From: a virus
DNA: 43,351 bases
Strand: one strand, 5' to 3'
IMG/VR virus record: IMGVR_UViG_3300020473_002181
Coordinates: 1 to 43,351 of that record
In this document: piece by piece, positions 9,404 through 43,351 of the stretch
How positions within the stretch are numbered: the stretch's first letter is position 1
Layout: every line of letters starts with the position of its first letter
Notes under the pieces: model-generated
What the model saw: only the letters and a program-made list of their open reading frames with translations
What the model was told of the DNA's origin: nothing
The model's database searches: none
Translations under genes and position numbers: made by a program

Positions 9404-9480
9404 TGGCTGGGGCGGTTGGACTCGAACCAACAACGGCCGGGGTAACAACCCGGTGCACCTGCCTGTGGCGCTTCACCCCA
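9404..9480 (-). tRNA. tRNA-Asn (GUU)
   Basis: A complete cloverleaf of 77 nt includes an encoded CCA (9404-9406). The acceptor stem is TGGGGTG/CGCCCCA, the D arm GCGC/GTGC, the anticodon stem CCGGG/CCCGG with loop TTGTTAC (anticodon GTT), and the T arm GTTGG/CCAAC with loop TTCGAGT. Discriminator G fits Asn. It is separated from tRNA-Thr by 6 nt and presumably processed from the same transcript as its protein-gene neighbours. Confidence 0.96.
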
Positions 9481-9486
9481 TCAATG

Positions 9487-9562
9487 TGGAGCCACCTATC
9501 AGACTTGAACTGATGACCTACGGTTTACAAAACCGTTGCTCTACCAACTGAGCTAAGGTGGC
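9487..9562 (-). tRNA. tRNA-Thr (UGU)
   Basis: A complete cloverleaf of 76 nt includes an encoded CCA (9487-9489). The acceptor stem is GCCACCT/AGGTGGC, the D arm GCTC/GAGC, the anticodon stem ACGGT/ACCGT with loop TTTGTAA (anticodon TGT), and the T arm ATCAG/CTGAT. The first base of the tRNA (9562) is also the last base of the TAG stop codon of the upstream VOC gene, so 5' processing must cut at the very end of that message. Confidence 0.97.
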
Positions 9563-12632: not shown

Positions 12633-13361
12633 TTAAACTTCAAATGAACTGTTATTTTCAAGATCTTCGTATATTCCAAATCGCAAACGAAGAATTTTCT
12701 CCTCTCTTTCAGTGAGCGAAGTAAAGCAAGACTCTATCGTTTTGATTACCTTCTCCCTATCGATTTCGCTTTCTACGTCTACGGCGTTTGTGTCCTGCAA
12801 TATTTCAGAAAATTTTCTGCCGTCTTCATCAGAGCCTGGTGAGGAATCAATAGAGCAAACACGCGATAGTGCAAAAGAAGCAATACAAGTCTCTATCATT
12901 TTTTTAGAAACGCCTAGGAGATCTGCAAGCTCTTCTTCTGTAGGCAGCTGGCCAAATTCCTCTTCATACTCCTTGTTAAGATTAGTAATCTTCCACATCA
13001 AGCCTGATGTATGTGATGGTATTCTTACTGTATTCTTATGTATGCTAATATGACGGCTCACAGCTTGCCTAATCCACCAGCTTGCGTATGTGCTAAACTT
13101 AAAGCCTTTGCGCCAATCAAATCTTTCAACTGCTTTCATCAATCCAATGTTTGACTCTTGGATAAGATCTTCTAAATCGCAGCCTCTCTTTGAGTATTTC
13201 TTAGCGATTGATACAGCAAGGCGAAGGTTTGATTGAATCATAATATCTCTTGCTAGATTGTCTCCCTTTTCTATCCTTTGAGATAGTTCTACCTCTTGCT
13301 CACGTGTTAAAAGTTTATGCTTACCAACATCTTTAAAATAAGACTCTAGTATTGAAGACAC
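12633..13361 (-). CDS. Sigma-70-family RNA polymerase sigma factor lacking region 4.2 (242 aa)
   Basis: Region 2 is clear at about residues 40-105 (DLIQESNIGLMKAVERFDWR, FSTYASWWIRQAV), with the -10-melting aromatics intact. Region 3 follows (about 111-165, with LPTEEELADLLGVS), and region 4.1 is LTEREEKILRLRFGI. The protein then ends SSFEV, precisely where 4.2 (TLEEV...) should start. Neither other frame restores it. It should direct polymerase to -10 or extended -10 promoters, or work with a partner, most simply the HTH protein encoded next. Start GTG 13361 has AGGAG 6 bases upstream. It presumably drives phage middle or late genes. Confidence 0.9.
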   Translation of the reverse strand: MSSILESYFKDVGKHKLLTREQEVELSQRIEKGDNLARDIMIQSNLRLAVSIAKKYSKRGCDLEDLIQESNIGLMKAVERFDWRKGFKFSTYASWWIRQAVSRHISIHKNTVRIPSHTSGLMWKITNLNKEYEEEFGQLPTEEELADLLGVSKKMIETCIASFALSRVCSIDSSPGSDEDGRKFSEILQDTNAVDVESEIDREKVIKTIESCFTSLTEREEKILRLRFGIYEDLENNSSFEV

Positions 13362-14763: not shown

Positions 14764-16565
<1,802 letters not shown>

Positions 16566-25401: not shown

Positions 25402-25758
25402 CTAAGAGACGATTAACTTCACCTTGCAATTTGCATCTTGAATATTGCTTATGTCTATGCAGATATCAGAAAAGCTATCTTTTTTAATTTTTAAAATACT
25501 ATTTTCTTCATATTTTATTTCAATTCCAAAAATCGTATCGCCAGATATTAATCTAGATGCTATCTCCTGTGAGCACATTGTTGTTATCTCTGCTCCCTGA
25601 GCACTTCTTTTAAAGCCGGTAATATTTGATATAACACTCTCGTCTTCGAAGTCAATAAAGCAAGAAAAAAGCGTGGGAGTTGTTACTAAGTCATAGAACT
25701 CTGTCATATCAACACGCTCCATCAGAGACTCACTCATCATGACAGAGGCATCATTCAT
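25402..25758 (-). CDS. Hypothetical beta-rich protein with LME N-terminus (118 aa)
   Basis: It begins MNDASVMMSESLMERVDMTE, with a short helix ending in LME, then alternating strands (TLFSCFIDFEDESVISNITG; CKVKLIVS). No family was recognised. The ATG overlaps the stop of the PCD-like gene as ATGA. Confidence 0.55.
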   Translation of the reverse strand: MNDASVMMSESLMERVDMTEFYDLVTTPTLFSCFIDFEDESVISNITGFKRSAQGAEITTMCSQEIASRLISGDTIFGIEIKYEENSILKIKKDSFSDICIDISNIQDANCKVKLIVS

Positions 25759-26159
25759 ATGCTCTTTTCTCTTATATTTGAAAGATAGTATTGCAGGTCA
25801 TCGTAAAGATCATCTATAAATTTTGTCAGCTCTATGTCTAGCTCAGTAACTGCGTCTACATCATGTGTATAAGATTCAATCTTGACATTTCTATTTTTTA
25901 TTTCTATGTCTGCATGATGTCCCACTGATTCCTGATGCTTTAATATCTGGCTGATGAACTCTCTTAGAAGCGATGGATTTCTAAACTTAAACACTCTCCC
26001 AAGTCTTTCTGGGCTTGAAAGTGTAGTCCACTCTGACTCAGATACGCTAACGGGCAAAGAGTCAACTTCTTTTCCACCTAGGACGATATCTAAAGACCTT
26101 GATGAAAAAGAAGACTCAGTTAAAAGCTCGTTATCTACATAGCTGAGAAGAGATTTCAT
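25755..26159 (-). CDS. Pterin-4a-carbinolamine dehydratase-like protein with LxE leader (134 aa)
   Basis: From about residue 43 the protein follows the PCD/DCoH family: EWTTL, RVFKFRNPSLLREFISQIL, then the active-site pair His81-His82 in VGHHADIEI and His99-Asp100 in YTHDVDAVTELDIELTKFID. The 17-residue spacing between the second and third His equals that of the known enzyme. PCD recycles hydroxylated pterin cofactor or serves as a dimerisation factor. A 15-residue N-terminal leader (MKSLLSYVDNELLTE) precedes it, like the virion-type tags. No pterin-dependent hydroxylase is visible here, so the role is unclear. Confidence 0.8.
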   Translation of the reverse strand: MKSLLSYVDNELLTESSFSSRSLDIVLGGKEVDSLPVSVSESEWTTLSSPERLGRVFKFRNPSLLREFISQILKHQESVGHHADIEIKNRNVKIESYTHDVDAVTELDIELTKFIDDLYDDLQYYLSNIREKSI

Positions 26160-30128: not shown

Positions 30129-30821
30129 CTATTTTAATGCCCTTGCAATCTTCTCTGCCTTCTCTACTCTCTTTTCAATGACATCCCAGTTAAATTGCTT
30201 CATCATTGCAGAAACATATGTCTTAACATTTTTTAAATAATCTCTATAGTACGCATGTTGCCACACATCCATTACAATTACAGGATACGAACCTATGGGA
30301 ATATTTAAGCTGTGAAGATCAATTACACAATTTTGATATCTCTGTAGAAATACATTATAGACTGTAACAGCCCAGCCGCATCTAGATGCCATACAGCATG
30401 CTATAAAATCTCGCTGCCAGTCATCAAAGGTTCCGAAATCTCTGGAGAGGCGCATGTATGAGAGAGAATCCATTTTTATTTCACTGTGTAAGTCACTGAT
30501 GTTCGCAAAATAAAGCTCATGGAGAAAGACAGCGTTTTGATTGAAGGCTTCATCAATCTTAAGTGACCTATACTCAGAGCTGTTAGAGTTCGCATCTTCT
30601 CTGCTGGCTGTATCAAGCTTTGCGCTAATCTCATTTAGATCTTTAACGTAAGTATCGTAAAGCTCAATGTGATTTTTCTTGTTTGCCGTGCTTAACATCT
30701 CTGTCTTTAAGTCAAAATGCTTTACCTGTGCAACAAAAGCTTCGTTTATTGTTTCAGTCTCTTCTAGCTTTAAGCTTTCTCTAATATTGTCAGCTAGATC
30801 TTTGTTTGTGAAATTTTTCAT
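30129..30821 (-). CDS. Fe/Mn superoxide dismutase-like protein with N-terminal tag (230 aa)
   Basis: The family pattern is clear: NHIELYDTYVKDLNEI (ligand His51), FLHELYFANI (probable ligand His101), DFGTFDDWQRDFI (129-140) and MDVWQHAYYRDY with Asp185 and His189. The second ligand lies in an LHExYF motif rather than the classical NHxxFW, as in an atypical SOD clade, so activity is not certain. The first 28 residues (NIRESLKLEETETINE) are an extra leader like the virion tags. It could detoxify superoxide or be a structural virion protein that keeps the fold. Confidence 0.8.
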   Translation of the reverse strand: MKNFTNKDLADNIRESLKLEETETINEAFVAQVKHFDLKTEMLSTANKKNHIELYDTYVKDLNEISAKLDTASREDANSNSSEYRSLKIDEAFNQNAVFLHELYFANISDLHSEIKMDSLSYMRLSRDFGTFDDWQRDFIACCMASRCGWAVTVYNVFLQRYQNCVIDLHSLNIPIGSYPVIVMDVWQHAYYRDYLKNVKTYVSAMMKQFNWDVIEKRVEKAEKIARALK

Positions 30822-31146: not shown

Positions 31147-31569
31147 TTATCTAATAGAAGAGAACTTTTTCACATCAATTCCTGACTCTGTAAGCAACTT
31201 TATTCCACTATCATCTCTGTATGCCTCATCGTAGACAACTTTTTCAACGCCTGAGTTTATTATTGCCTTTGCACACATCCTACACGGGCTAAGGGTAACA
31301 TACATAGTTTTACCCTTGGGATTGTTATAGTCCATCTTTAAAAGACAATTTATTTCTGCATGAAGCATGCCTGATTCACCAGGCAGTGTTGATTCAACTT
31401 CATTAGGTCCGCCAGAATAATTGCCATTATAGCCAACAGCCAGCACCTGGGTGTTATCTTCGGTAACAACAATTGCACCTACTCGATGTCTCGGGTCGTA
31501 CGATCTACGAGATATTGAATGCGCAAACTCCATCCAAACTGTATGCCACTCAGGTCGATTTGCTTCCAC
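31147..31569 (-). CDS. dCMP deaminase (140 aa)
   Basis: The zinc site is complete: HAE (His70, Glu72) and PCRMC (Cys96, Cys99). SYDPRHRVGAIVV and GYNGNYSGGPNE are typical of deoxycytidylate deaminases. It converts dCMP to dUMP for dTTP synthesis, alongside thymidine kinase and the ThyA-like protein. Start GTG 31569 with AAAGAG 7 bases upstream overlaps the DHH gene by 20 bp. Confidence 0.93.
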   Translation of the reverse strand: MEANRPEWHTVWMEFAHSISRRSYDPRHRVGAIVVTEDNTQVLAVGYNGNYSGGPNEVESTLPGESGMLHAEINCLLKMDYNNPKGKTMYVTLSPCRMCAKAIINSGVEKVVYDEAYRDDSGIKLLTESGIDVKKFSSIR

Positions 31570-32545
31570 TTAAAATCTCTTTAGGGGTTATGTCAAGTGC
31601 AGATCCAACCTCTTCTATAGACACACCTGCCTCCTGTGCTTTCTTAGCAATGACTTCAAGATCAGCTTTAATTTCTTCAACAACTTCTGGATCGGGCTCT
31701 TCGGTCTCTTCTTCTATGTCAAAGATGTCGTCTACGCATAGCTCTCCGGAAAGCTGAAACCCCGACGCCTTTTTATGACCGCCGCCGCCGAACTCTTTTG
31801 CTATTTCTGACACATCGATTTTATCGTGAAAAGATCTTAGGCTAACCTTTATCATCCTGTCATCGTGGTCATAATACCATATGACAGCAAAGTCGCAATC
31901 AGGAGCAAGGCGTGCACCTATCTCAGACATCCAGTGAGAAGAGTTAACAACAAGCACTTCTTTGCCCTTGTACTTCCTAGATACAGCCTTTTCACAAACC
32001 TTCTTAACGACAGTCTTAGAATAAGCTAGAATATAAGACCCTCTCTTAACAGCATCGTCGAACACTGAATCATCTTCATATTTTTCGAACTCCTCAAATT
32101 CGAAAGGCACCATGTCAAATGCAGCGGCAAATTCTTTGGAATAGGGCAATTCCCATTTCCATAAATCTCTATCTTGAATGTACTGAATAAATTTTGGTGA
32201 TTCTTTGCCGGGGTGGAAAAATTCCCATGCCAGCATTGCACCACTTTTAGTCATGTCAAAGTGGGCATTTGATATGTCGTGAAGCTCCACCATCGCAGAC
32301 TTGTGGTGGTCAATAACCAAAAGCTCAGCTGCGTCTTCAATCATTTGCTTTGTAGTTGCATTGTTGAATGAAAAATCTAGTATAACGACATTTTTGTCTT
32401 TGACGTCTGGAGGAGGCGTGCCGTGTTTACAAGCGTGATACTCGGCACGATTTCCGAGCTGCTTCCAGGCAGAGTACGCGGCACCAAAGCCGTCAGTGCA
32501 ATCAGCGTGGTAAATAACAACATTTACAGAGGAGGGTTCAAGCAT
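31550..32545 (-). CDS. DHH-family phosphoesterase (331 aa)
   Basis: ATG 32545 (AGGAAG, 4 bases upstream) is the start; it overlaps the thymidine kinase end by 8 bp. Motifs: YHADCTDGFG (motif I), ILDFSF (II), VIDHH (III) and a C-terminal DHHA1 motif GGGGHKKASGF. It is a two-metal phosphoesterase related to NrnA nano-RNase and exopolyphosphatase-like proteins. It probably degrades short oligonucleotides or nucleotide signals, which would recycle nucleotides. A C-terminal acidic extension (about 265-331) is extra. Confidence 0.88.
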   Translation of the reverse strand: MLEPSSVNVVIYHADCTDGFGAAYSAWKQLGNRAEYHACKHGTPPPDVKDKNVVILDFSFNNATTKQMIEDAAELLVIDHHKSAMVELHDISNAHFDMTKSGAMLAWEFFHPGKESPKFIQYIQDRDLWKWELPYSKEFAAAFDMVPFEFEEFEKYEDDSVFDDAVKRGSYILAYSKTVVKKVCEKAVSRKYKGKEVLVVNSSHWMSEIGARLAPDCDFAVIWYYDHDDRMIKVSLRSFHDKIDVSEIAKEFGGGGHKKASGFQLSGELCVDDIFDIEEETEEPDPEVVEEIKADLEVIAKKAQEAGVSIEEVGSALDITPKEILSGSKST

Positions 32546-33104
32546 TTTGCTTCCTAGAAAAGTGAGGATGATGATTCCAGCACCTTGGCTCATAAATATC
32601 TGACCCGCCGACCAAGATCTCTTCCTCGCCACCTACCTTTTTAAATGTGTAGTATGCATCAGACCCGCAAACGGGACAGACTGCCGGACACTTTTCAACC
32701 CTTGTTGCCCAACAAGACATCTTTTCAATCTCTTCAAATACATTAAATTTAGCAGAAAGATCAAGTGATGAAACCGCTATAGTTATCCCCATTCTAAAGA
32801 TTTTAATAAGACTGTCAGAAATTCCGTCTATCATAAATGCTTCATCAACAGCAACTACATCAGGTCGGGTTGGCATGTCTCTAATATATTGTAACACATC
32901 TTCTCCCTCAGCTACACAAACTGCACTAAGCTTCCCACCTGAATGCGTTACAATTGAGCTGCTGTCATACCTATCATCAATAGCAGGCTTAAAGGCAACT
33001 ATTCTCTTGTTTTGATATCTATACCTGTCTATAGTTGCTAAAAGCCTTGTTGTTTTTGAGCCAAACATCGGCCCCGTGTAAATTATGAATTCAGGTATGT
33101 TCAC
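32538..33104 (-). CDS. tdk: Thymidine kinase, type II (188 aa)
   Basis: The P-loop is TGPMFGSKTTR (residues 10-20). VVAVDEAFMI carries the Walker B/catalytic Glu, and the lasso and zinc region is CPVCG...LVGGSDIYEPRCW. The zinc site looks like CxxC plus C and His (RCWNHH) instead of the usual CRxCH. It phosphorylates thymidine for the dTTP pool. Start GTG 33104 overlaps the cupin gene by 14 bp. Confidence 0.94.
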   Translation of the reverse strand: MNIPEFIIYTGPMFGSKTTRLLATIDRYRYQNKRIVAFKPAIDDRYDSSSIVTHSGGKLSAVCVAEGEDVLQYIRDMPTRPDVVAVDEAFMIDGISDSLIKIFRMGITIAVSSLDLSAKFNVFEEIEKMSCWATRVEKCPAVCPVCGSDAYYTFKKVGGEEEILVGGSDIYEPRCWNHHPHFSRKQNA

Positions 33105-35495: not shown

Positions 35496-36404
35496 CTAAT
35501 CTAGAATATGAGCTGAATTTAGTGTAAATCTCATCTTAATAAATTCTATATTATCACAAGGCAGGCTTGAATAAACACACTTAGACAAATGATATAAAAA
35601 TTTTAAATCATGATGAAACGTATTTTTGACATCTGAAGAGCGTAGAACAAAATCAATATTGAGATTTCCATCTCTAAACATTGCATGTATGAATGAAATA
35701 CAAGAGTCGTTAGTGTGGATAAATCGACGTGAAAACATATCTTGTTTCCTATTGTACTCATTTATTCCTAAGATCTCGTTACTAATCTTTTTTAGAGTTT
35801 CCTGCTTGATTGATTTGTAATACGCCTCTTCGCCTTTTGTAAACATAACATCGGGATCATCTTCAAGAAAAGCACCATCATCGTAGATTGTAAAATTTAA
35901 ACCAGGAGCTTCTTTAGTGTGACATTTTTCAACAAATTTCTGAATATATTCCGATATATCACGCAGTGTTAGTGACTCCATAGATTCTAATTCTCTAAGT
36001 AATATCCCGGCATTTACATCTATATTGCTTCCTATAAGTTCAATAACATTAGGAAATATTACCTTTTTCCTGTGCTCCTCATCAAACATGTCATAAACTT
36101 TTCTCAAAGAGGAAAGATTGTGTATTTCGTCGCCCCTTACATCATATCTTCTTTTAATCTCTTGCCAAGGGGGAAGCAACATGACAAACTTATTATTGAG
36201 ATTATAAAATTCCTTCTGAGAAAAGCTTCTTATAAAAGGATTCTTTCTATTGTACATACTAGCAAATAGCTCTCTAGAAATGTAAGATCTATCGAGAAGG
36301 TGCCACCTATAATTTGTGATATCGTGCACTTTTCCTATAAGAGATGTCTTGCCGGAGCAGTCTGGACCTTCAAAAAAAACTGATTCACATGGAAAATATA
36401 ACAT
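35496..36404 (-). CDS. Fused P-loop (d)NMP kinase and ThyA/dCMP-hydroxymethylase-like protein (302 aa)
   Basis: The N-terminal half has a thymidylate-kinase-like P-loop FEGPDCSGKTS (11-21) and DRSYISRELF (38-47). The C-terminal quarter matches thymidylate synthase around the active site: SRR (225-227), then Cys235, Asp244-Gly245, Arg255-Ser-Ser-Asp258. The gap-free spacing from Cys to Arg (20) and to the next key residue (31) equals E. coli ThyA Cys146/Arg166/Asn177. At that last position this protein has Asp266, as in dCMP hydroxymethylase. SAHI near the end parallels the ThyA THLY motif, and the protein ends there, lacking the ThyA C-terminus. It may therefore act on dCMP, or be catalytically reduced. 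Confidence 0.72.
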   Translation of the reverse strand: MLYFPCESVFFEGPDCSGKTSLIGKVHDITNYRWHLLDRSYISRELFASMYNRKNPFIRSFSQKEFYNLNNKFVMLLPPWQEIKRRYDVRGDEIHNLSSLRKVYDMFDEEHRKKVIFPNVIELIGSNIDVNAGILLRELESMESLTLRDISEYIQKFVEKCHTKEAPGLNFTIYDDGAFLEDDPDVMFTKGEEAYYKSIKQETLKKISNEILGINEYNRKQDMFSRRFIHTNDSCISFIHAMFRDGNLNIDFVLRSSDVKNTFHHDLKFLYHLSKCVYSSLPCDNIEFIKMRFTLNSAHILD

Positions 36405-36413
36405 AATACAAAT

Positions 36414-39400
36414 CTATAGCTCAATCTGTCTCATTTTATACGATGAAGTAGAGCATCCCCAAGACTCAGACGATGCTACCTCGGCAATCCATATTGTGTA
36501 TAGCTTTGGCTTTACTTTAAACTTAGACCAAACTCTAAGCCAGGAACTTTCAAATGTATTGTCAATCACCTTCATTCTATAAAAAACTTTACCATTCTTT
36601 GTCTCTCTCTCCTCTATAGACTGAATGCAAAACCATGCTATGTCTTTTTCACTCCCTTGCAAATCTGTAATAGGTCTTACATTTGATTTTCTAATCTTTT
36701 CAATAATCTTAGGAGGAAAAACTAAAGATTCATCTGCGCCTGCCATGAGGCTCACACTGAAATCAATCTTGGTTTCCCTAGACCAGTCAGGTGATCCGTG
36801 CACTTCTTTAATTTTTTCATCTATAAAGATTGGTACTTTTAAACCTTGCTTTAAGATTTTCTTTGCCGCTGTTTTTGTCATACCGTGTCGACCTTTTTTT
36901 AGAAGATCATAGCTGGGGACAATGATATCATAAAGCTGCCTGTGATTTTGTATGTGTCCAGAATTAAACTCTCTAAGAGACGAGAATGCCTCAACTTTAC
37001 ACAGAGAATCGAAGCAGGTCTTATTCATCTTTGAAGGCTTCCATTTACCGTCTTCAGTAAACATCATATCATCAAGGCTAGAGAAGGGACGTCTCTCCAT
37101 AATTTCAGCAACAGCAGCATCTCCGACACCTTTGATTGCAGTTAGGGGTGGTACAAAACCTCCACGATCGTCACTATAGACCCAAACATCTGAAGAAGCA
37201 TTAATATCAGGAGGAAGAATTGTATAGCCTAGAGATTTAATTTCAGAGATTACTTTTCCAAACTTATTTGAACCATTTTGGGTTTGCAAGCACGTCGCTA
37301 GCCATTCTTTTTCATAGTAGGTATGCAGCCAAGCTGAATAATAAGAGTCAATAGCGTAGGATACAGCATGTGACTTGTTAAAACCATAGCCTGAAAAGAA
37401 CTCAATTGTTTCATAAAGCTTTTCGGCTTTACCTCTGTCCATGCCGGATATTTCAACTGCCCCGTTAACAAATTTTTTCCGAAGATCAACTCTTTCTTGC
37501 ACTTTTGCTGCATTAGAATCAAGAGATTTCTTAACAAGTGTCTTACGCATCTTGTCTGATGCGCCTTTATCAAAATTGGCAAGACGTTGTGCCAGAAGCA
37601 TAAACTGCTCTTGAAAGGAAATAAAGCCATAAGTTTCACTTAAAATATCTTTAATAACTGGGTGATCGTATTTAATTGGATTCCCGCTTTCAACAGATTT
37701 TTTAGCTTTAACATATTTTCTATGTACACCTGCAGATAAAGGTCCAGGTCGATAAATAGCAGTAATGGTTGCCAGCTCTTCAATAGTTCTAGGCTTGGCG
37801 GACATACAGAAGTTTCTTGCACCCTGTTGTGTAAACTGAAAGACTTGTACGAACCTTCCGCTGTGATAAACGTGTTCCCACACTTTCTGATCTTCAAGCG
37901 TGTTATATCGACAATTCATATTTTTATCAAAGAACTTTTGAATATCTGCAAACGCTGGTGCGGGATTACCTTGCTTTCTCAAAATAAGTCTTACACAATC
38001 CTCAACCATTTTAAGAGTTGTCAACCCGAGAAAGTCGAACTTTAGAAAGCCGTTAGGCTCTAAGTGTCTAAAGTTCATACCTTCTGACCAGGGTGTTTGA
38101 AGCTCGCCTCGTACTTTAATAACAGGCATATACTTCTCAAGGTCTGGGCAAATTAGAACTCCCCCAGCATGTCGACCGATTGACCTAGACTCCATAAATA
38201 AGTTTTGAACGTGCTCATTTACCTTTGGATACTTATCCATGAATTCAGCATATTTTGGTGAGTACTTCATGCAATCTTCGTGAGTTAGGACATATGTCGA
38301 CCTTTCCTCATGATCTCCCATGGCCTTGTGCATAACATCTTTCTCAAGAGTATTAGTCATAGCATTTACTTCTCCAAAATCAATACCATAAAACTTAGAG
38401 ACATCCTTAATCAATGACTTAAGCTTTAGCGTATTAAAGTTTGAAACTGGAACTACAGACTCCTCACCAAAAAGCTCACGAGAGGCGTCAATTAAGACGT
38501 CCCTATCGCCTGCGTCAGTATCAATATCAGGCCAGCCAGCTTTTGCCCTATGTAAGAATCTTTCCCACAAGAGGCCGTACTTAATCGGATCAGTGGTAGT
38601 AATCCCAAGCAAATAGTTAACAAGTGAGCCTGCACCTGAACCTCTACCTGGGCCGATAATTGTGCTTTGAGATGCTAAATCAAAAACCTTTGTCATTGTT
38701 AAAAAGTAATTCTCGAAACCAAGATACTTGATATCATCTAGCTCCATCTTGGCACGCTCAACATATTCGGGATCCAAATGAAGATTTTCATCAACCAGGG
38801 CACTCTTGACTCTGCTTGCCAGCTGATTAAAAGCAGAATTCTCAGAAGTACCAAACTTAGGAAGCTTTGCCTCTTCATCAAACCAGACATCCTCGCACTG
38901 TTCCCAGGCAATATCATAAGATCTTTCAATAGCATCAGATATTATCTGATCTTTACCTGCATAAAAATCATAATTTGGAACATGAAGTTTATACTCTTCC
39001 CACATCTGTTCTGCGTTTTTAGGATAAAGCTCACATTTTAAATCTTCAAAAGCAGGTAATGTAGGCATGGTATCGCCTCTTGCGCCCATTCGACCTAGCT
39101 TTCGGTAAAGCTCTCGTGCTTCCCACATATTCCGGCTATAATAGTGACTATCTGCAGTTGCTACTAGCGGGATCCCTGTTTTTTCATGAAGTGCTATAAG
39201 GTGACGGTTTGTTTTATGCTGCATCGACAGAGAGTTAAATTGAATTTCAAGATTGAAGTTGTCTCGACCCACAGCATCTATGAATCTATCAGACATGTTT
39301 TCTAAATCTAGCATTATATCTGAATCAGTCTTTCCTGTCGCGCTGCCCCTTGCAATCAAAGAAGCAGGATAACCACCAATACATGCAGTGCTTACAACAA

Positions 39401-39974
39401 GGCCTTCACCGTGAGTTTTAAGAAGATTATAGTCAATCCTGGGAAATCTATAAAAGCCGTCTGTGTAAGACTTTTTAACTAGTGTAAAAAGATTCTGCAA
39501 GCCTATTTGATTTTTTGCGAGGACGACAAGATGGTATCTTCTCTTCCAGTCATTTTTCTCAAAGTCATTCTTTGTCTCCTCTTCGTTTTCAATGACGAGG
39601 CCGCCGGAAATCTCATCTTCAGAATTTATATCAGTAGACTCTTTGGCTTTTTTCTCAGACCTTGCTGCTCGAACTTCTTCTCGATGTGCCTCGTAGGAGA
39701 CCCGCCACTCAGAGAGAGATGGGACAAAATAAAATTCAACACCATATATTTGACGATATTCTCTACCTTGCTTTTTTAGCTTTTTGGCATACGTATGAGC
39801 GTGTGCAAGACCGTTACCATTTCCATGGTCAGTTAATGCCCATGCATTCATCTCATTGGAAAGAACAAAGTCAATGTGCTGGCTTGGATATCCCAGACCG
39901 TCATAGGGGCTTCCAGTCCCACAGTGTGCGTGAAGACCTACAAATCTTTTGGGTAAAATAAGCTTAGATGACAA
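36414..39974 (-). CDS. dnaE: DNA polymerase III alpha subunit (C-family replicative polymerase) (1186 aa)
   Basis: PHP domain (about 10-280), then the palm with GPGRGSGAGS (441-450), PDIDTD (catalytic Asp483, Asp485) and KFDFLGL (Asp647), fingers, a helix-hairpin-helix and a C-terminal OB fold (about 1115-1165). All nine PHP metal ligands known from Thermus/mycobacterial DnaE can be placed (His15, His17, Asp25, His50, Glu80, His148, Cys198, Asp275, His277), so it probably proofreads by itself. Start TTG 39974 has GGAGAG about 7 bases upstream. It would replicate the phage genome independently of host PolIII alpha. It follows a terminator, forming a unit separate from dnaK. Confidence 0.96.
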   Translation of the reverse strand: MSSKLILPKRFVGLHAHCGTGSPYDGLGYPSQHIDFVLSNEMNAWALTDHGNGNGLAHAHTYAKKLKKQGREYRQIYGVEFYFVPSLSEWRVSYEAHREEVRAARSEKKAKESTDINSEDEISGGLVIENEEETKNDFEKNDWKRRYHLVVLAKNQIGLQNLFTLVKKSYTDGFYRFPRIDYNLLKTHGEGLVVSTACIGGYPASLIARGSATGKTDSDIMLDLENMSDRFIDAVGRDNFNLEIQFNSLSMQHKTNRHLIALHEKTGIPLVATADSHYYSRNMWEARELYRKLGRMGARGDTMPTLPAFEDLKCELYPKNAEQMWEEYKLHVPNYDFYAGKDQIISDAIERSYDIAWEQCEDVWFDEEAKLPKFGTSENSAFNQLASRVKSALVDENLHLDPEYVERAKMELDDIKYLGFENYFLTMTKVFDLASQSTIIGPGRGSGAGSLVNYLLGITTTDPIKYGLLWERFLHRAKAGWPDIDTDAGDRDVLIDASRELFGEESVVPVSNFNTLKLKSLIKDVSKFYGIDFGEVNAMTNTLEKDVMHKAMGDHEERSTYVLTHEDCMKYSPKYAEFMDKYPKVNEHVQNLFMESRSIGRHAGGVLICPDLEKYMPVIKVRGELQTPWSEGMNFRHLEPNGFLKFDFLGLTTLKMVEDCVRLILRKQGNPAPAFADIQKFFDKNMNCRYNTLEDQKVWEHVYHSGRFVQVFQFTQQGARNFCMSAKPRTIEELATITAIYRPGPLSAGVHRKYVKAKKSVESGNPIKYDHPVIKDILSETYGFISFQEQFMLLAQRLANFDKGASDKMRKTLVKKSLDSNAAKVQERVDLRKKFVNGAVEISGMDRGKAEKLYETIEFFSGYGFNKSHAVSYAIDSYYSAWLHTYYEKEWLATCLQTQNGSNKFGKVISEIKSLGYTILPPDINASSDVWVYSDDRGGFVPPLTAIKGVGDAAVAEIMERRPFSSLDDMMFTEDGKWKPSKMNKTCFDSLCKVEAFSSLREFNSGHIQNHRQLYDIIVPSYDLLKKGRHGMTKTAAKKILKQGLKVPIFIDEKIKEVHGSPDWSRETKIDFSVSLMAGADESLVFPPKIIEKIRKSNVRPITDLQGSEKDIAWFCIQSIEERETKNGKVFYRMKVIDNTFESSWLRVWSKFKVKPKLYTIWIAEVASSESWGCSTSSYKMRQIEL

Positions 39975-40047: not shown

Positions 40048-41922
40048 TTAGGAAGTTTGAGTGGCAGTGCCGCCCTCTGTAACAACTTCAGGTTCTGGGG
40101 GAGTGACCTGATCTGCAAGGGGTTCAGTTTTGGCATGAAGCTCTGCGGCTGCAGCTATTAGAGTTTTCTGCAAGCTTTCTAAAACTGTTTCTATTTCCCC
40201 TATGTCTTCGCTAGAAAAAGCTGCTCGACCTTTCTCAGCTGCCTCTTCAACAGAGGATTTTGTATTAGGAGACATGTTATCTGCGTCTCTATTGAGAAGC
40301 TGATCCGCCTGATATACGAGACCGTCTAGAGCATTTCTCTTTTCAAGAAGCTGGTGTCTGGCATTATCCTCTTCTTCGTACTGTTCTGCTTCAGCAATCA
40401 TTTGATCAATCTCTTCTTTTGAAAGAGTACTGCCCTCTTGAATAGTAATAGACTGCTCTTTGCCAGTGGACTTGTCTTTTGCAGATACATTTACTATTCC
40501 ATCTGCGTCTATATCAAAGCTAACTTCAATCTGCGGTACACCCCTGGGTGCAGGTGTAATTTCAGATAGCTGAAACTGTCCCATAGTCTTGTTATCATTA
40601 GCAAACTTCCGCTCACCTTGCAAAACATGAATATCAACAGTTGTCTGACCGTCTGTAGATGTGCTGAACACTTCTGACTTCTTGCACGGAATTGTTGTAT
40701 TTCTTTCAATGAGAACAGTGTTTACACCCCCGAGAGTCTCAATCCCAAGAGAGAGAGGTGTAACATCTAGAAGAAGAAGATCATTAACATCTCCCGTAAA
40801 AACACCGCCTTGAACTGCAGCACCGAGAGCAACAACTTCGTCAGGATTTACAGAGTTATTTGACTTTTTCTCAAAAAAGTTTTCTACTGCCTGTCTTACA
40901 AGCGGGATTCTTGTAGATCCACCGACAAGAACTACTTCATCTATATCTTTTACCTTTAGCTTGGCATCTTTCAGTGCCCTTCTTGCAGGTATAAGTGTCC
41001 TCTCAACAAACGAGCCAATCATTCTTTCAAACTCAGATCGAGAAAGAACCTTCATAAGGTGCTTAGGACCTGTACTGTCAGCAGTCAAGAACGGCAAGTT
41101 AATCTCTGTTTGTTGTGCACTTGAAAGCTCTATCTTGGCTTTTTCCGAAGCTTCTTTCAACCTTTGCAAGACCATGTTATCAGAGCTAACGTCAATTCCC
41201 GTCTCATCTTTAAACGTATCTATCAGCCAGCTTGTTATCATCTGATCTACATCATCTCCTCCAAGCTGTGTATCTCCGTTGGTGCTCAGAACCTCAACTA
41301 CATTATCAGAAACGTCTAATATCGAAATATCAAATGTTCCTCCTCCCAGATCATAGACAGCAATTTTTTGATCTTTTGTTTTGTCTAGACCGTATGCAAG
41401 CGCTGCAGCTGTAGGTTCATTAATTATTCTCTTAACCTCAAGGCCGGCAATCTTACCTGCTTCCTTAGTTGCCTGACGCTGAGCATCATTAAAATATGCT
41501 GGAACTGTGATAACAGCCTCTTCGACCTTACACCCAAGGTAAGACTCAGCATCTCTCTTTAGCTTTTGCAAAACCATTGAGCTTATCTGCTGGGGTGTGT
41601 ATGCTTTTTTTGCAAGCTTAATATTACATGTTCCATCTTTTCTTCGAGTCACCTTATACGGGACATTTGACACATCTTCTTTTACGTCCTTGTGTTTCAT
41701 CCCGATAAATCTTTTCGCAGAAAAGACAGTATTTTCAGGGTTGGTAACAGCTTGTCTTCTGGCAGCTTGCCCAACAAGTCTTTCACCGTCACTAGCAAAT
41801 GCAACAACTGAAGGTGTTGTGCGAGAACCTTCCGAATTTGTGATTACCTTGGGTGATTCACCGTCCATTACAGAAACAACAGAGTTAGTTGTCCCTAGAT
41901 CAATACCGATTATTTTTGCCAT
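40048..41922 (-). CDS. dnaK: DnaK chaperone (Hsp70) (624 aa)
   Basis: A full-length Hsp70: [11 protein letters not shown] at the N-terminus, [10 protein letters not shown] (about 193-202), GGSTRIP (about 337-343), and a substrate-binding domain with [13 protein letters not shown] and SDGQT-type loops. The lid is present, but the C-terminal EEVD-like tail is replaced by a Pro/Glu/Thr-rich end. It probably works with the phage DnaJ directly upstream; no GrpE is seen here. AAGGAG lies 7 bases before ATG 41922. It would aid replication-complex or capsid assembly. Confidence 0.97.
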
Positions 41923-42010: not shown

Positions 42011-43063
42011 CTATTTTTTTCTTGATTGTTCAAAGTCTTTTAGAATTTTTATTGATTCTTCAGTGAGGCTCTGCGGCGTTTTTATGTGGATTTGCACATA
42101 CAATGAGCCTCTTTGTTTTGAGTCTACAGCAACAGGTAGTCCCATATTATTAATCTTAAAGTCTGTGTGAGTTTGCATCCCAGCAGGTATGTGTAGAGAC
42201 GCCTTCTCTCCATTTATTCCTTCAACTTGAATGTCTCCGCCTAGGATCGCATGCTCAATCTCAATCTGCTTTACTGTAAACAAGTCTGGCCCGTTTCTTT
42301 CAAACCTTCTATCGTCAACAATATTGACAACAAGATAGGCATCGCCTGGTGAATGACAGCCTTTTTCGAAATTTCCAAAGCCGGCGACTCTCATCTGTGT
42401 GCCGTGTGATACACCGGGCGGTATGTCAAGATCTATGCTCTTAATCTCTGGTCTGACTCCAGCGCCAGAACACAGGTCACACGGAGACTCTATAAGTGTG
42501 CCTGTACCTTCACATACCGGGCAGGGTCGGACAACAGTCATGAATCCTGCCTGGATTGCGACTTCACCTTTTCCGCCACACTGTGAACACGTTTTTATAC
42601 TGCTCGGGTCTTTTGCACCAGCGCCATCACACTTTTCACAGACAATGTTTCTTTTAACCTGAACCTTTCTACTAACACCTCGCAAGACATCCTGTAGCGT
42701 GATGTTAATCTGCATGCTTATGTCAGTACCTCTCTGCTGCCTTCTTCCTGAGCCTCGCCTTCCACCAAACATGTCGCCAAAGCCAAATCCTTGAAACATT
42801 TCAGAAAAAGACTCGAATATGTCTCCTGAAAAACCTGCTCCCTCACCGACCGTCCCAAACCTGTCGTACTGGCTCTTTTTCTCTTCGTCTGACAATATTG
42901 AGTAAGCCTCAGACACCTCTTTGAATCTCTTCTCTGACTCAGAGTCACCTTGATTTCTATCTGGGTGATATTTTAACGCAAGCTTTCTGTAAGATTTTTT
43001 TATATCTTCTTGAGAAGCATCTCTAGATAGCCCTAATATCTGATAGTAATCCGGTGCTTGCAT
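42011..43063 (-). CDS. dnaJ: DnaJ co-chaperone, type I (350 aa)
   Basis: J domain with HPD at 33-35 (KYHPDRN), a Gly/Phe-rich stretch (about 72-105), four CxxCxGxG zinc repeats (CEKCDGAG, CSQCGGKG, CPVCEGTG, CDLCSGAG) and the C-terminal client-binding domains. It is complete and divergent from host-type DnaJ only in detail. It stimulates DnaK ATPase. AGGAAG lies 4 bases before ATG 43063. It is followed by dnaK after an 88-bp gap with no terminator, so the two are probably co-expressed. Confidence 0.97.
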   Translation of the reverse strand: MQAPDYYQILGLSRDASQEDIKKSYRKLALKYHPDRNQGDSESEKRFKEVSEAYSILSDEEKKSQYDRFGTVGEGAGFSGDIFESFSEMFQGFGFGDMFGGRRGSGRRQQRGTDISMQINITLQDVLRGVSRKVQVKRNIVCEKCDGAGAKDPSSIKTCSQCGGKGEVAIQAGFMTVVRPCPVCEGTGTLIESPCDLCSGAGVRPEIKSIDLDIPPGVSHGTQMRVAGFGNFEKGCHSPGDAYLVVNIVDDRRFERNGPDLFTVKQIEIEHAILGGDIQVEGINGEKASLHIPAGMQTHTDFKINNMGLPVAVDSKQRGSLYVQIHIKTPQSLTEESIKILKDFEQSRKK

Positions 43064-43071
43064 TTTGCTTC

Positions 43072-43351
43072 CTATTCTATCTCTTGATCATACGGTTCGA
43101 CAATAAGCATTTCACTCTCAAAGCATCTGTCTAGATAGTCTTCAAGCTGCTCAAAGGATGTGCATACTTTAACCCCGCTTCTTGCGAGCATTAAATTAAA
43201 CTTTGCCCCGGTCGGAAGACCATTGCAGAAATATACAATTGGCACATCATTTGCAAAAGCATAGCCAGCCTCCCAGATAGTTCCGATGTCCTTATCCCGA
43301 GTGTTAACAATTAGGAAATCTGCTGTCTTGATATGGTGAAGATTCCCATCG
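43072..43351 (-). CDS. Nucleoside 2-deoxyribosyltransferase-like protein, 5' end missing
   Basis: The frame stays open to the window edge, so the N-terminus is missing (92 residues visible, stop TAG at 43072-43074). TADFLIVNTRDKDIGTIWEA followed by GYAFANDVPIVYF is the conserved core of the nucleoside 2-deoxyribosyltransferase family (aspartate and glutamate active-site region). It may swap bases in deoxynucleosides, a salvage step. It ends 8 bp before the dnaJ start, so it shares its transcript. Confidence 0.72.
   Translation of the reverse strand, partial: DGNLHHIKTADFLIVNTRDKDIGTIWEAGYAFANDVPIVYFCNGLPTGAKFNLMLARSGVKVCTSFEQLEDYLDRCFESEMLIVEPYDQEIE

Follow-up and report, generated by a model that had tools for sequence, protein, structure and literature searches.

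Among the closest described systems is the dCMP hydroxymethylase of phage T4 (gp42). In this enzyme Asp179 selects cytosine and protonates its N3, Cys148 attacks C6, the phosphate is bound by Arg123 and Arg124 from the partner subunit, and Asp145 activates water (PMC6400193). Glu60, conserved across TS/CH/dCH members, activates methylene-tetrahydrofolate, and the PABA ring and the glutamate tail are bound in the stretch that separates the first strand from the SRR motif and in the tail that follows the His (PMC6400193). The homologue from phage RB69 is described as a 5-hydroxy-dCMP synthase with sugar genes near it (PMC13390438).

The window analysed here is a stretch of 43,351 nucleotides from the IMG/VR virus record IMGVR_UViG_3300020473_002181; all features given below by window coordinates lie on its minus strand. 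The gene P0001 (35496..36404; ATG start, 302 codons and a stop) encodes a single 302-residue protein with two domains: a P-loop dNMP-kinase-like domain (residues 1-145, 35970..36404), recognized by PHROG, profile and VIA matches, and a compact domain of the thymidylate synthase (TS) superfamily (residues 146-302, 35499..35969), recognized by profile, predicted fold and superposition. The first-pass annotation had proposed such a fusion with the TS-like part at residues 200-302, but the domain starts at about residue 146. The kinase placed ahead of it was confirmed by the P-loop EGPDCSGKT (residues 12-20), by profile matches and by the fold.

The putative active site of the TS-like domain comprises Ser225-Arg226-Arg227 as the phosphate-binding SRR motif (35724..35732; T4 Arg123/Arg124), Cys235 as the catalytic nucleophile (35700..35702; T4 Cys148), Arg255-Ser256 as the phosphate-site RS motif (35637..35642; T4 Arg168-Ser169), Asp266 at the cytosine-selecting Asn-to-Asp position (35607..35609; T4 Asp179) and His299 of the SAH motif (35508..35510; T4 His216). 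Cys235, Arg255-Ser256-x-Asp258 and Asp266 are spaced as Cys148, Arg168-Ser169-x-Asp171 and Asp179 of T4 gp42, the two proteins sharing a Cys-to-Asp distance of 31 residues. The gapless agreement with TS claimed earlier held for this stretch but not outside it, where, relative to T4, the SRR-to-Cys loop is shorter by 16 residues and the distance from Asp266 to His299 by 4.

The long TS motif (RR...C...RS..D...S.H) arose once in 200,000 shuffles of P0001 and was present, among the 174 open frames of the window, in the P0001 frame only; the short motif alone appeared in 61 of 200,000 shuffles. Conservation among homologues and the predicted fold are stronger evidence for a TS-like domain than the shuffle statistics. 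Single-sequence searches with P0001 did not find the TS domain in Pfam, NCBIfam or the PDB, and PHROGs returned the kinase only. No match to Pfam PF00303 above the gathering score was obtained for P0001, its C-terminal part or the relatives' records, and a single-sequence scan of viral contigs with P0001 gave no match. Relatives were reached through the neighbouring DNA polymerase III alpha gene, which led to syntenic contigs, all of them encoding a homologue in the equivalent position. A seven-sequence profile then recovered 58 full-length viral loci (L014-L071), and 53 distinct sequences, the window's included, entered the alignment, the homologues being 24-45% identical to the window protein. 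All 53 members are kinase fusions. Searching again with nothing but the TS-like domain as the starting point yielded 45 loci, every one kinase-fused and 11 of them on newly found contigs. The fusion was not found in isolate phages of the searched collection, and the genome contigs gave only four weak matches, all kinase-only. A tblastn match in Bacillus phage P59 (H4, E 3) proved to be an antisense chance match, and matches of profile segments to unrelated proteins (E 0.12) were likewise taken as chance.

The profile of the C-terminal domain, built from the 53-member alignment, had T4 dCMP hydroxymethylase as its top match (E 1.3e-4), followed by AfhB entries (E ~0.07), with no dUMP-type TS matched; hhalign of the TS-like domain against T4 gp42 gave an E of 1.1e-8. 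The structure prediction proposed as a check in the first-pass annotation returned a TS-like fold for residues 146-302 (mean pLDDT 96.6) and not an unrelated one. The top Foldseek match of this model was the dCMP-bound structure of the dCMP hydroxylase AfhB of phage HY126 (E 2.3e-7). TS, MilA and T4 enzymes came after it, so that the top matches all belonged to the TS superfamily. VIA gave Z scores of 10-12 across 139-144 of the 157 residues, with MilA (Z 12.1, 142 residues, 3.0 Å) and AfhB (Z 12.1, 139 residues, 2.8 Å) next to ordinary TS (Z 10-11), differences below 1 counting as ties. Model residues 1-157 superposed on TS residues 1 to ~210, which ruled out a reading of the domain as half a TS. 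As modelled, it spans the TS core in full, starting at helix A and ending at the His motif, but has a shortened middle and no C-terminal tail. The earlier remark that the domain could be reduced was correct as to its length of 157 residues, but the complete TS core is there and its active-site residues are under constraint. Judged by fold and active site, the domain almost certainly belongs to the TS superfamily.

Conservation in the alignment followed the active site. Asp266 and Arg226 were kept in 53/53 members, Arg227 in 51/53, and Cys235, Arg255, Ser256 and His299 in 52/53 each. The dCMP-type Asp reported at position 266 is therefore an invariant feature of the family, set in a TS-superfamily domain that both the family profile and the confident fold support. 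The sole exception to the 52/53 positions was L067 (5992-6879), in which the Cys, Arg227, Arg255, Ser256, His299 and Glu192 were all lost while the P-loop of the kinase remained intact; such a joint loss was read as a natural indication that they belong to a single active site. The same locus could be used to argue that the TS fold is non-catalytic and captures or senses a cytosine nucleotide, setting the specificity or the feedback control of the kinase, and the very short domain, devoid of the known cofactor sites, would also agree with such a role. Nevertheless, binding alone needs no Cys, and the nucleophilic Cys was retained in 52 of 53 proteins at 24-45% identity, which makes a purely binding domain improbable. 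The TS-like domain likely has a catalytic function beyond binding. Its substrate is, with high probability, a cytosine nucleotide, the preference for dCMP being suggested by Asp266.

The folate side of the active site was compared with ten phage TS-type enzymes, namely nine of the folate type (five of them annotated as TS/hydroxymethylase only) and the RB69 enzyme. T4 Asp171, Gly175 and Tyr218 were constant in the nine folate-type enzymes and corresponded to Asn, Val and Phe in RB69. In the fusion family, the Asp171 equivalent was Asn in 31/53, Asp in 17/53, the window protein among them, and Glu in 5/53. The Gly175 equivalent was never Gly, and the position of Tyr218 was occupied by Ile, Val or Leu, with Tyr in 2/53. 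The RB69/AfhB pattern, RSxN with the loss of Gly175 and Tyr218, is thus present in the family, its Asn occurring in the 31 members named above. As far as sequence can tell, the residues on the dCMP side are all kept and those on the folate side are not. Since the Gly175 and Tyr218 positions differ, the protein was not classed as a confirmed dCMP hydroxymethylase, and the altered folate-linked positions make a non-folate donor the most likely one.

A different assignment, the one corresponding to the first-pass annotation, would be an ordinary, if compact, dCMP hydroxymethylase dependent on folate, which would use methylene-tetrahydrofolate to form 5-hydroxymethyl-dCMP, to be charged by the kinase. 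The T4 enzyme was the top match of the sequence profile and Asp266 is invariant, both in line with this assignment. Moreover, Glu192 (35829..35831) may replace the folate-activating Glu60. It was tentatively marked as the equivalent of catalytic Glu60 of T4 and Glu58 of E. coli, as it was kept in 52/53 members and fell opposite Glu60 in a low-confidence global alignment of profiles; a simple loss of Glu60 was dropped as an interpretation, given this conservation and its loss together with Cys and His in L067. Asp was also the commonest residue three positions before the Cys (26/53), where T4 has Asp145, though the register there is uncertain because the loop before the Cys is shortened. Against the folate-dependent assignment stand the missing equivalents of Gly175, Tyr218 and often Asp171, the loss or shortening of the segment linking the first strand to SRR and of the tail after the His, which in T4 hold the PABA and glutamate sites (PMC6400193), and the absence of dihydrofolate reductase (DHFR) from 15 large relatives. 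Overall, it was considered rather unlikely, whereas non-folate chemistry was regarded as moderately probable, and 5-hydroxycytosine or another non-folate product would be at least as likely as 5-hydroxymethyl-dCMP.

The explanation that we favour, with about an even chance of being right as a whole, is a bifunctional enzyme that would modify C5 of dCMP, perhaps by folate-free hydroxylation, and then phosphorylate the product. The compact TS domain would bind dCMP with the SRR motif and Arg255/Ser256 on the phosphate and with Asp266 reading and protonating N3; Cys235 would attack C6 and thereby activate C5. A non-folate donor would then modify C5, for which the best precedent is the 5-hydroxylation by the RB69/AfhB 5-hydroxy-dCMP synthase, and the fused kinase would convert the modified dCMP to the diphosphate, en route to a triphosphate for the phage polymerase encoded next door. 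The fusion, the fold, the conservation and the neighbouring genes are computational results. The binding of dCMP, the Cys chemistry and the kinase activity would follow those of known families, and it is a guess which cofactor is used, which product is formed and whether virion DNA contains it; for an altered base in virion DNA the chances appear evenly balanced. Several points weigh against the favoured explanation. The sequence profile is nearer to folate-dependent T4 gp42 than to AfhB, and no flavin-binding site was recognized to match the flavin dependence that marks the AfhB/RB69 type. Only about half of the members have Asp at the Asp145 position, where the window protein has Asn. The missing DHFR carries little weight, since folate is available from the host and some records may not be complete.

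The N-terminal domain carries the features of dNMP kinases, that is, a P-loop, a DRxxxS motif, an Arg-rich lid and a matching fold, and the residues of the P-loop (12-20), D38-R39-S40-x-x-S43, R86 and R90-G91-D92 are invariant in the alignment. Residues 1-145 matched phrog_761 thymidylate kinase in PHROGs (E 2.3e-7), while the kinase-domain profile matched YorR (2axp; E 1.7e-10) and TMK (6.6e-5). VIA aligned the domain with YorR (3kb2) at Z 13.4; for the whole of P0001 it listed kinases only, as the kinase domain fills the list. YorR, deoxyadenosine kinase and TMK were matched alike as best folds, hence the fold does not settle the substrate of the kinase.

The DNA polymerase III alpha gene (36414..39974) lies directly upstream of the fusion, as in the loci of all 15 large relatives (G001-G015; records of 104-237 kb). 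The recurrent gene order was polymerase III alpha, fusion, sugar-nucleotide epimerase(s), thymidine kinase, DHH protein and dCMP deaminase, found in 59, 57, 34, 49, 32 and 42 loci, respectively. In the window, thymidine kinase occupies 32538..33104 and dCMP deaminase, conserved in 15/15 large records, 31147..31569. The C-terminal part of a nucleoside 2-deoxyribosyltransferase-family gene, present in 14/15 large records, is cut by the window end (43072..43350). Neither ThyA nor DHFR was detected in the 15 large relatives; a separate intact ThyA, which had been named as evidence against the first interpretation, was thus not found, though the relatives encode ThyX. ThyX matches occurred in 15/15, mostly two per record, one canonical and one a divergent protein of ~330 residues, with a weak match only in one record. 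A dUTPase_2-type pyrophosphatase was also found in 15/15.

The divergent ThyX paralogue has RHRxGSFxAQCTGDR in place of RHRxxSxNExSxRY (e.g., L097:10001-10981 and L084:10590-11576) and adjoins the deoxyribosyltransferase-type gene close to the fusion; frequently it is not the only ThyX, a canonical one being encoded as well. Since the window ends in the deoxyribosyltransferase-type gene and is syntenic with L097, this paralogue is expected just past its end. It is possibly a second modified-pyrimidine enzyme. The gene cluster fits a virus managing its own pyrimidine pool and alone does not show a modified base. Its salvage character, with thymidine kinase, dCMP deaminase, the deoxyribosyltransferase-type gene and the divergent ThyX, would suit an enzyme that acts on a cytosine nucleotide and makes no DNA base, by removing or exchanging a C5 group, by deaminating through a C6 adduct or by salvage together with the divergent ThyX. 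However, every large relative encodes a separate dCMP deaminase, and the studied TS-type enzymes with this Asp modify C5; such a role was deemed quite improbable. The glucosyltransferases anticipated by the first-pass annotation did not appear either, as no TAGT was detected in the 15 large relatives and family-2 glycosyltransferases were present in 3/15 only. The epimerases and a cupin following the fusion loosely echo the sugar genes near the RB69 synthase.

Other genes of these viruses were also recorded. Halves of the dUTPase_2 profile fell on two adjacent ORFs in reversed order (L097:7270-8581; also G001, G004, G005 and G009-G012), positions 105-162 in the first ORF and 2-90 in the second, where they are fused to an NT5C 5'-nucleotidase domain. 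The window encodes a protein matching iron/manganese superoxide dismutase (30129-30821; C-terminal domain, E 3.3e-18), whose cluster was found in 33 loci around the fusion, as well as phage-encoded Cpn60-type chaperonin, DnaK and DnaJ (14764-16392, 40048-41922 and 42011-43063), a pterin-4a-carbinolamine dehydratase-like protein (25755-26159; E 8.8e-15), unusual in a phage and possibly pterin-related, a sigma-70 family factor with regions 1.2, 2 and 3 (12633-13361) and tRNA genes for Asn(GTT) and Thr(TGT) (9404-9562).

Taken together, the fusion-bearing viruses are likely to synthesize and charge a cytosine building block that is chemically altered. It is conceivable, albeit doubtful as a combined proposal, that widespread uncultured phages swap cytosine for an undescribed base, that a miniature TS-fold enzyme, independent of folate and with its kinase built in, makes this base at the level of the monophosphate, and that the divergent ThyX paralogue and the deoxyribosyltransferase-type gene work alongside it. 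At 157 residues the domain would be an unusually small TS-superfamily enzyme, and the fusion would lead from dCMP to a charged modified nucleotide with a single gene, offering a compact system to ask what a TS active site can do without folate. As Pfam, NCBIfam and single-sequence searches are blind to it, annotation would miss nucleotide modification in these viruses; the fusion flags a set of large uncultured phages, and their DNA may be refractory to restriction enzymes and to sequencing chemistry.

Compared with the described enzymes, the fusion, shared by at least fifty related viruses, appears to be a novel form within that branch of the TS superfamily which modifies dCMP. T4 gp42 (PDB 1b49/1b5d) resembles it in the Cys-to-Asp spacing and in the Asp179 equivalent, and is its top sequence-profile match, whereas the fusion domain lacks Gly175, Tyr218 and the tail, does not conserve Asp145, is shorter by ~90 residues and is joined to a kinase. 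The 5-hydroxy-dCMP synthases of the AfhB/RB69 ORF048 type (PDB 9iqu, 9iqc), the top Foldseek and joint top VIA match, share with the family the dCMP-type Asp, the Cys, the RS, SRR and SAH motifs, RSxN and the lack of Gly175 and Tyr218. AfhB, however, is an unfused protein of 238 aa that retains the middle of the TS fold, and its sequence similarity to the 157-residue, kinase-fused domain is marginal (E 0.07). In RB69, a kinase gene lies two genes from the synthase. The CMP 5-hydroxymethylase MilA (PDB 5b6e), a joint best structural match, also acts on a cytosine nucleotide, but it has 318 residues, depends on folate and uses a ribonucleotide. YorR (SPbeta) and thymidylate kinases share the fold and the DRxxxS and RGD-type motifs of the kinase domain and have no TS domain.

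The fusion itself speaks for the two domains working together. Separate adjacent genes for a kinase and a TS/hydroxymethylase were found in HTVC119P, S28-C10, AXL_3, ct3Et533, Planchet, L073 and L075. The pairs of HTVC119P (gp15-gp16), ct3Et533, Planchet and L073 combine the same two activities with the kinase first, and HTVC119P gp16 has Asp at the base-selecting position, as in the fusion. Unlike the fusion, they consist of two genes with a full-length TS domain matched by Pfam PF00303. In L073 the kinase and the full TS-type genes overlap and DHFR is close, all within 3 kb. By gene content, the fused group, which lacks DHFR, would thus join in one protein activities that stand side by side in other phages.
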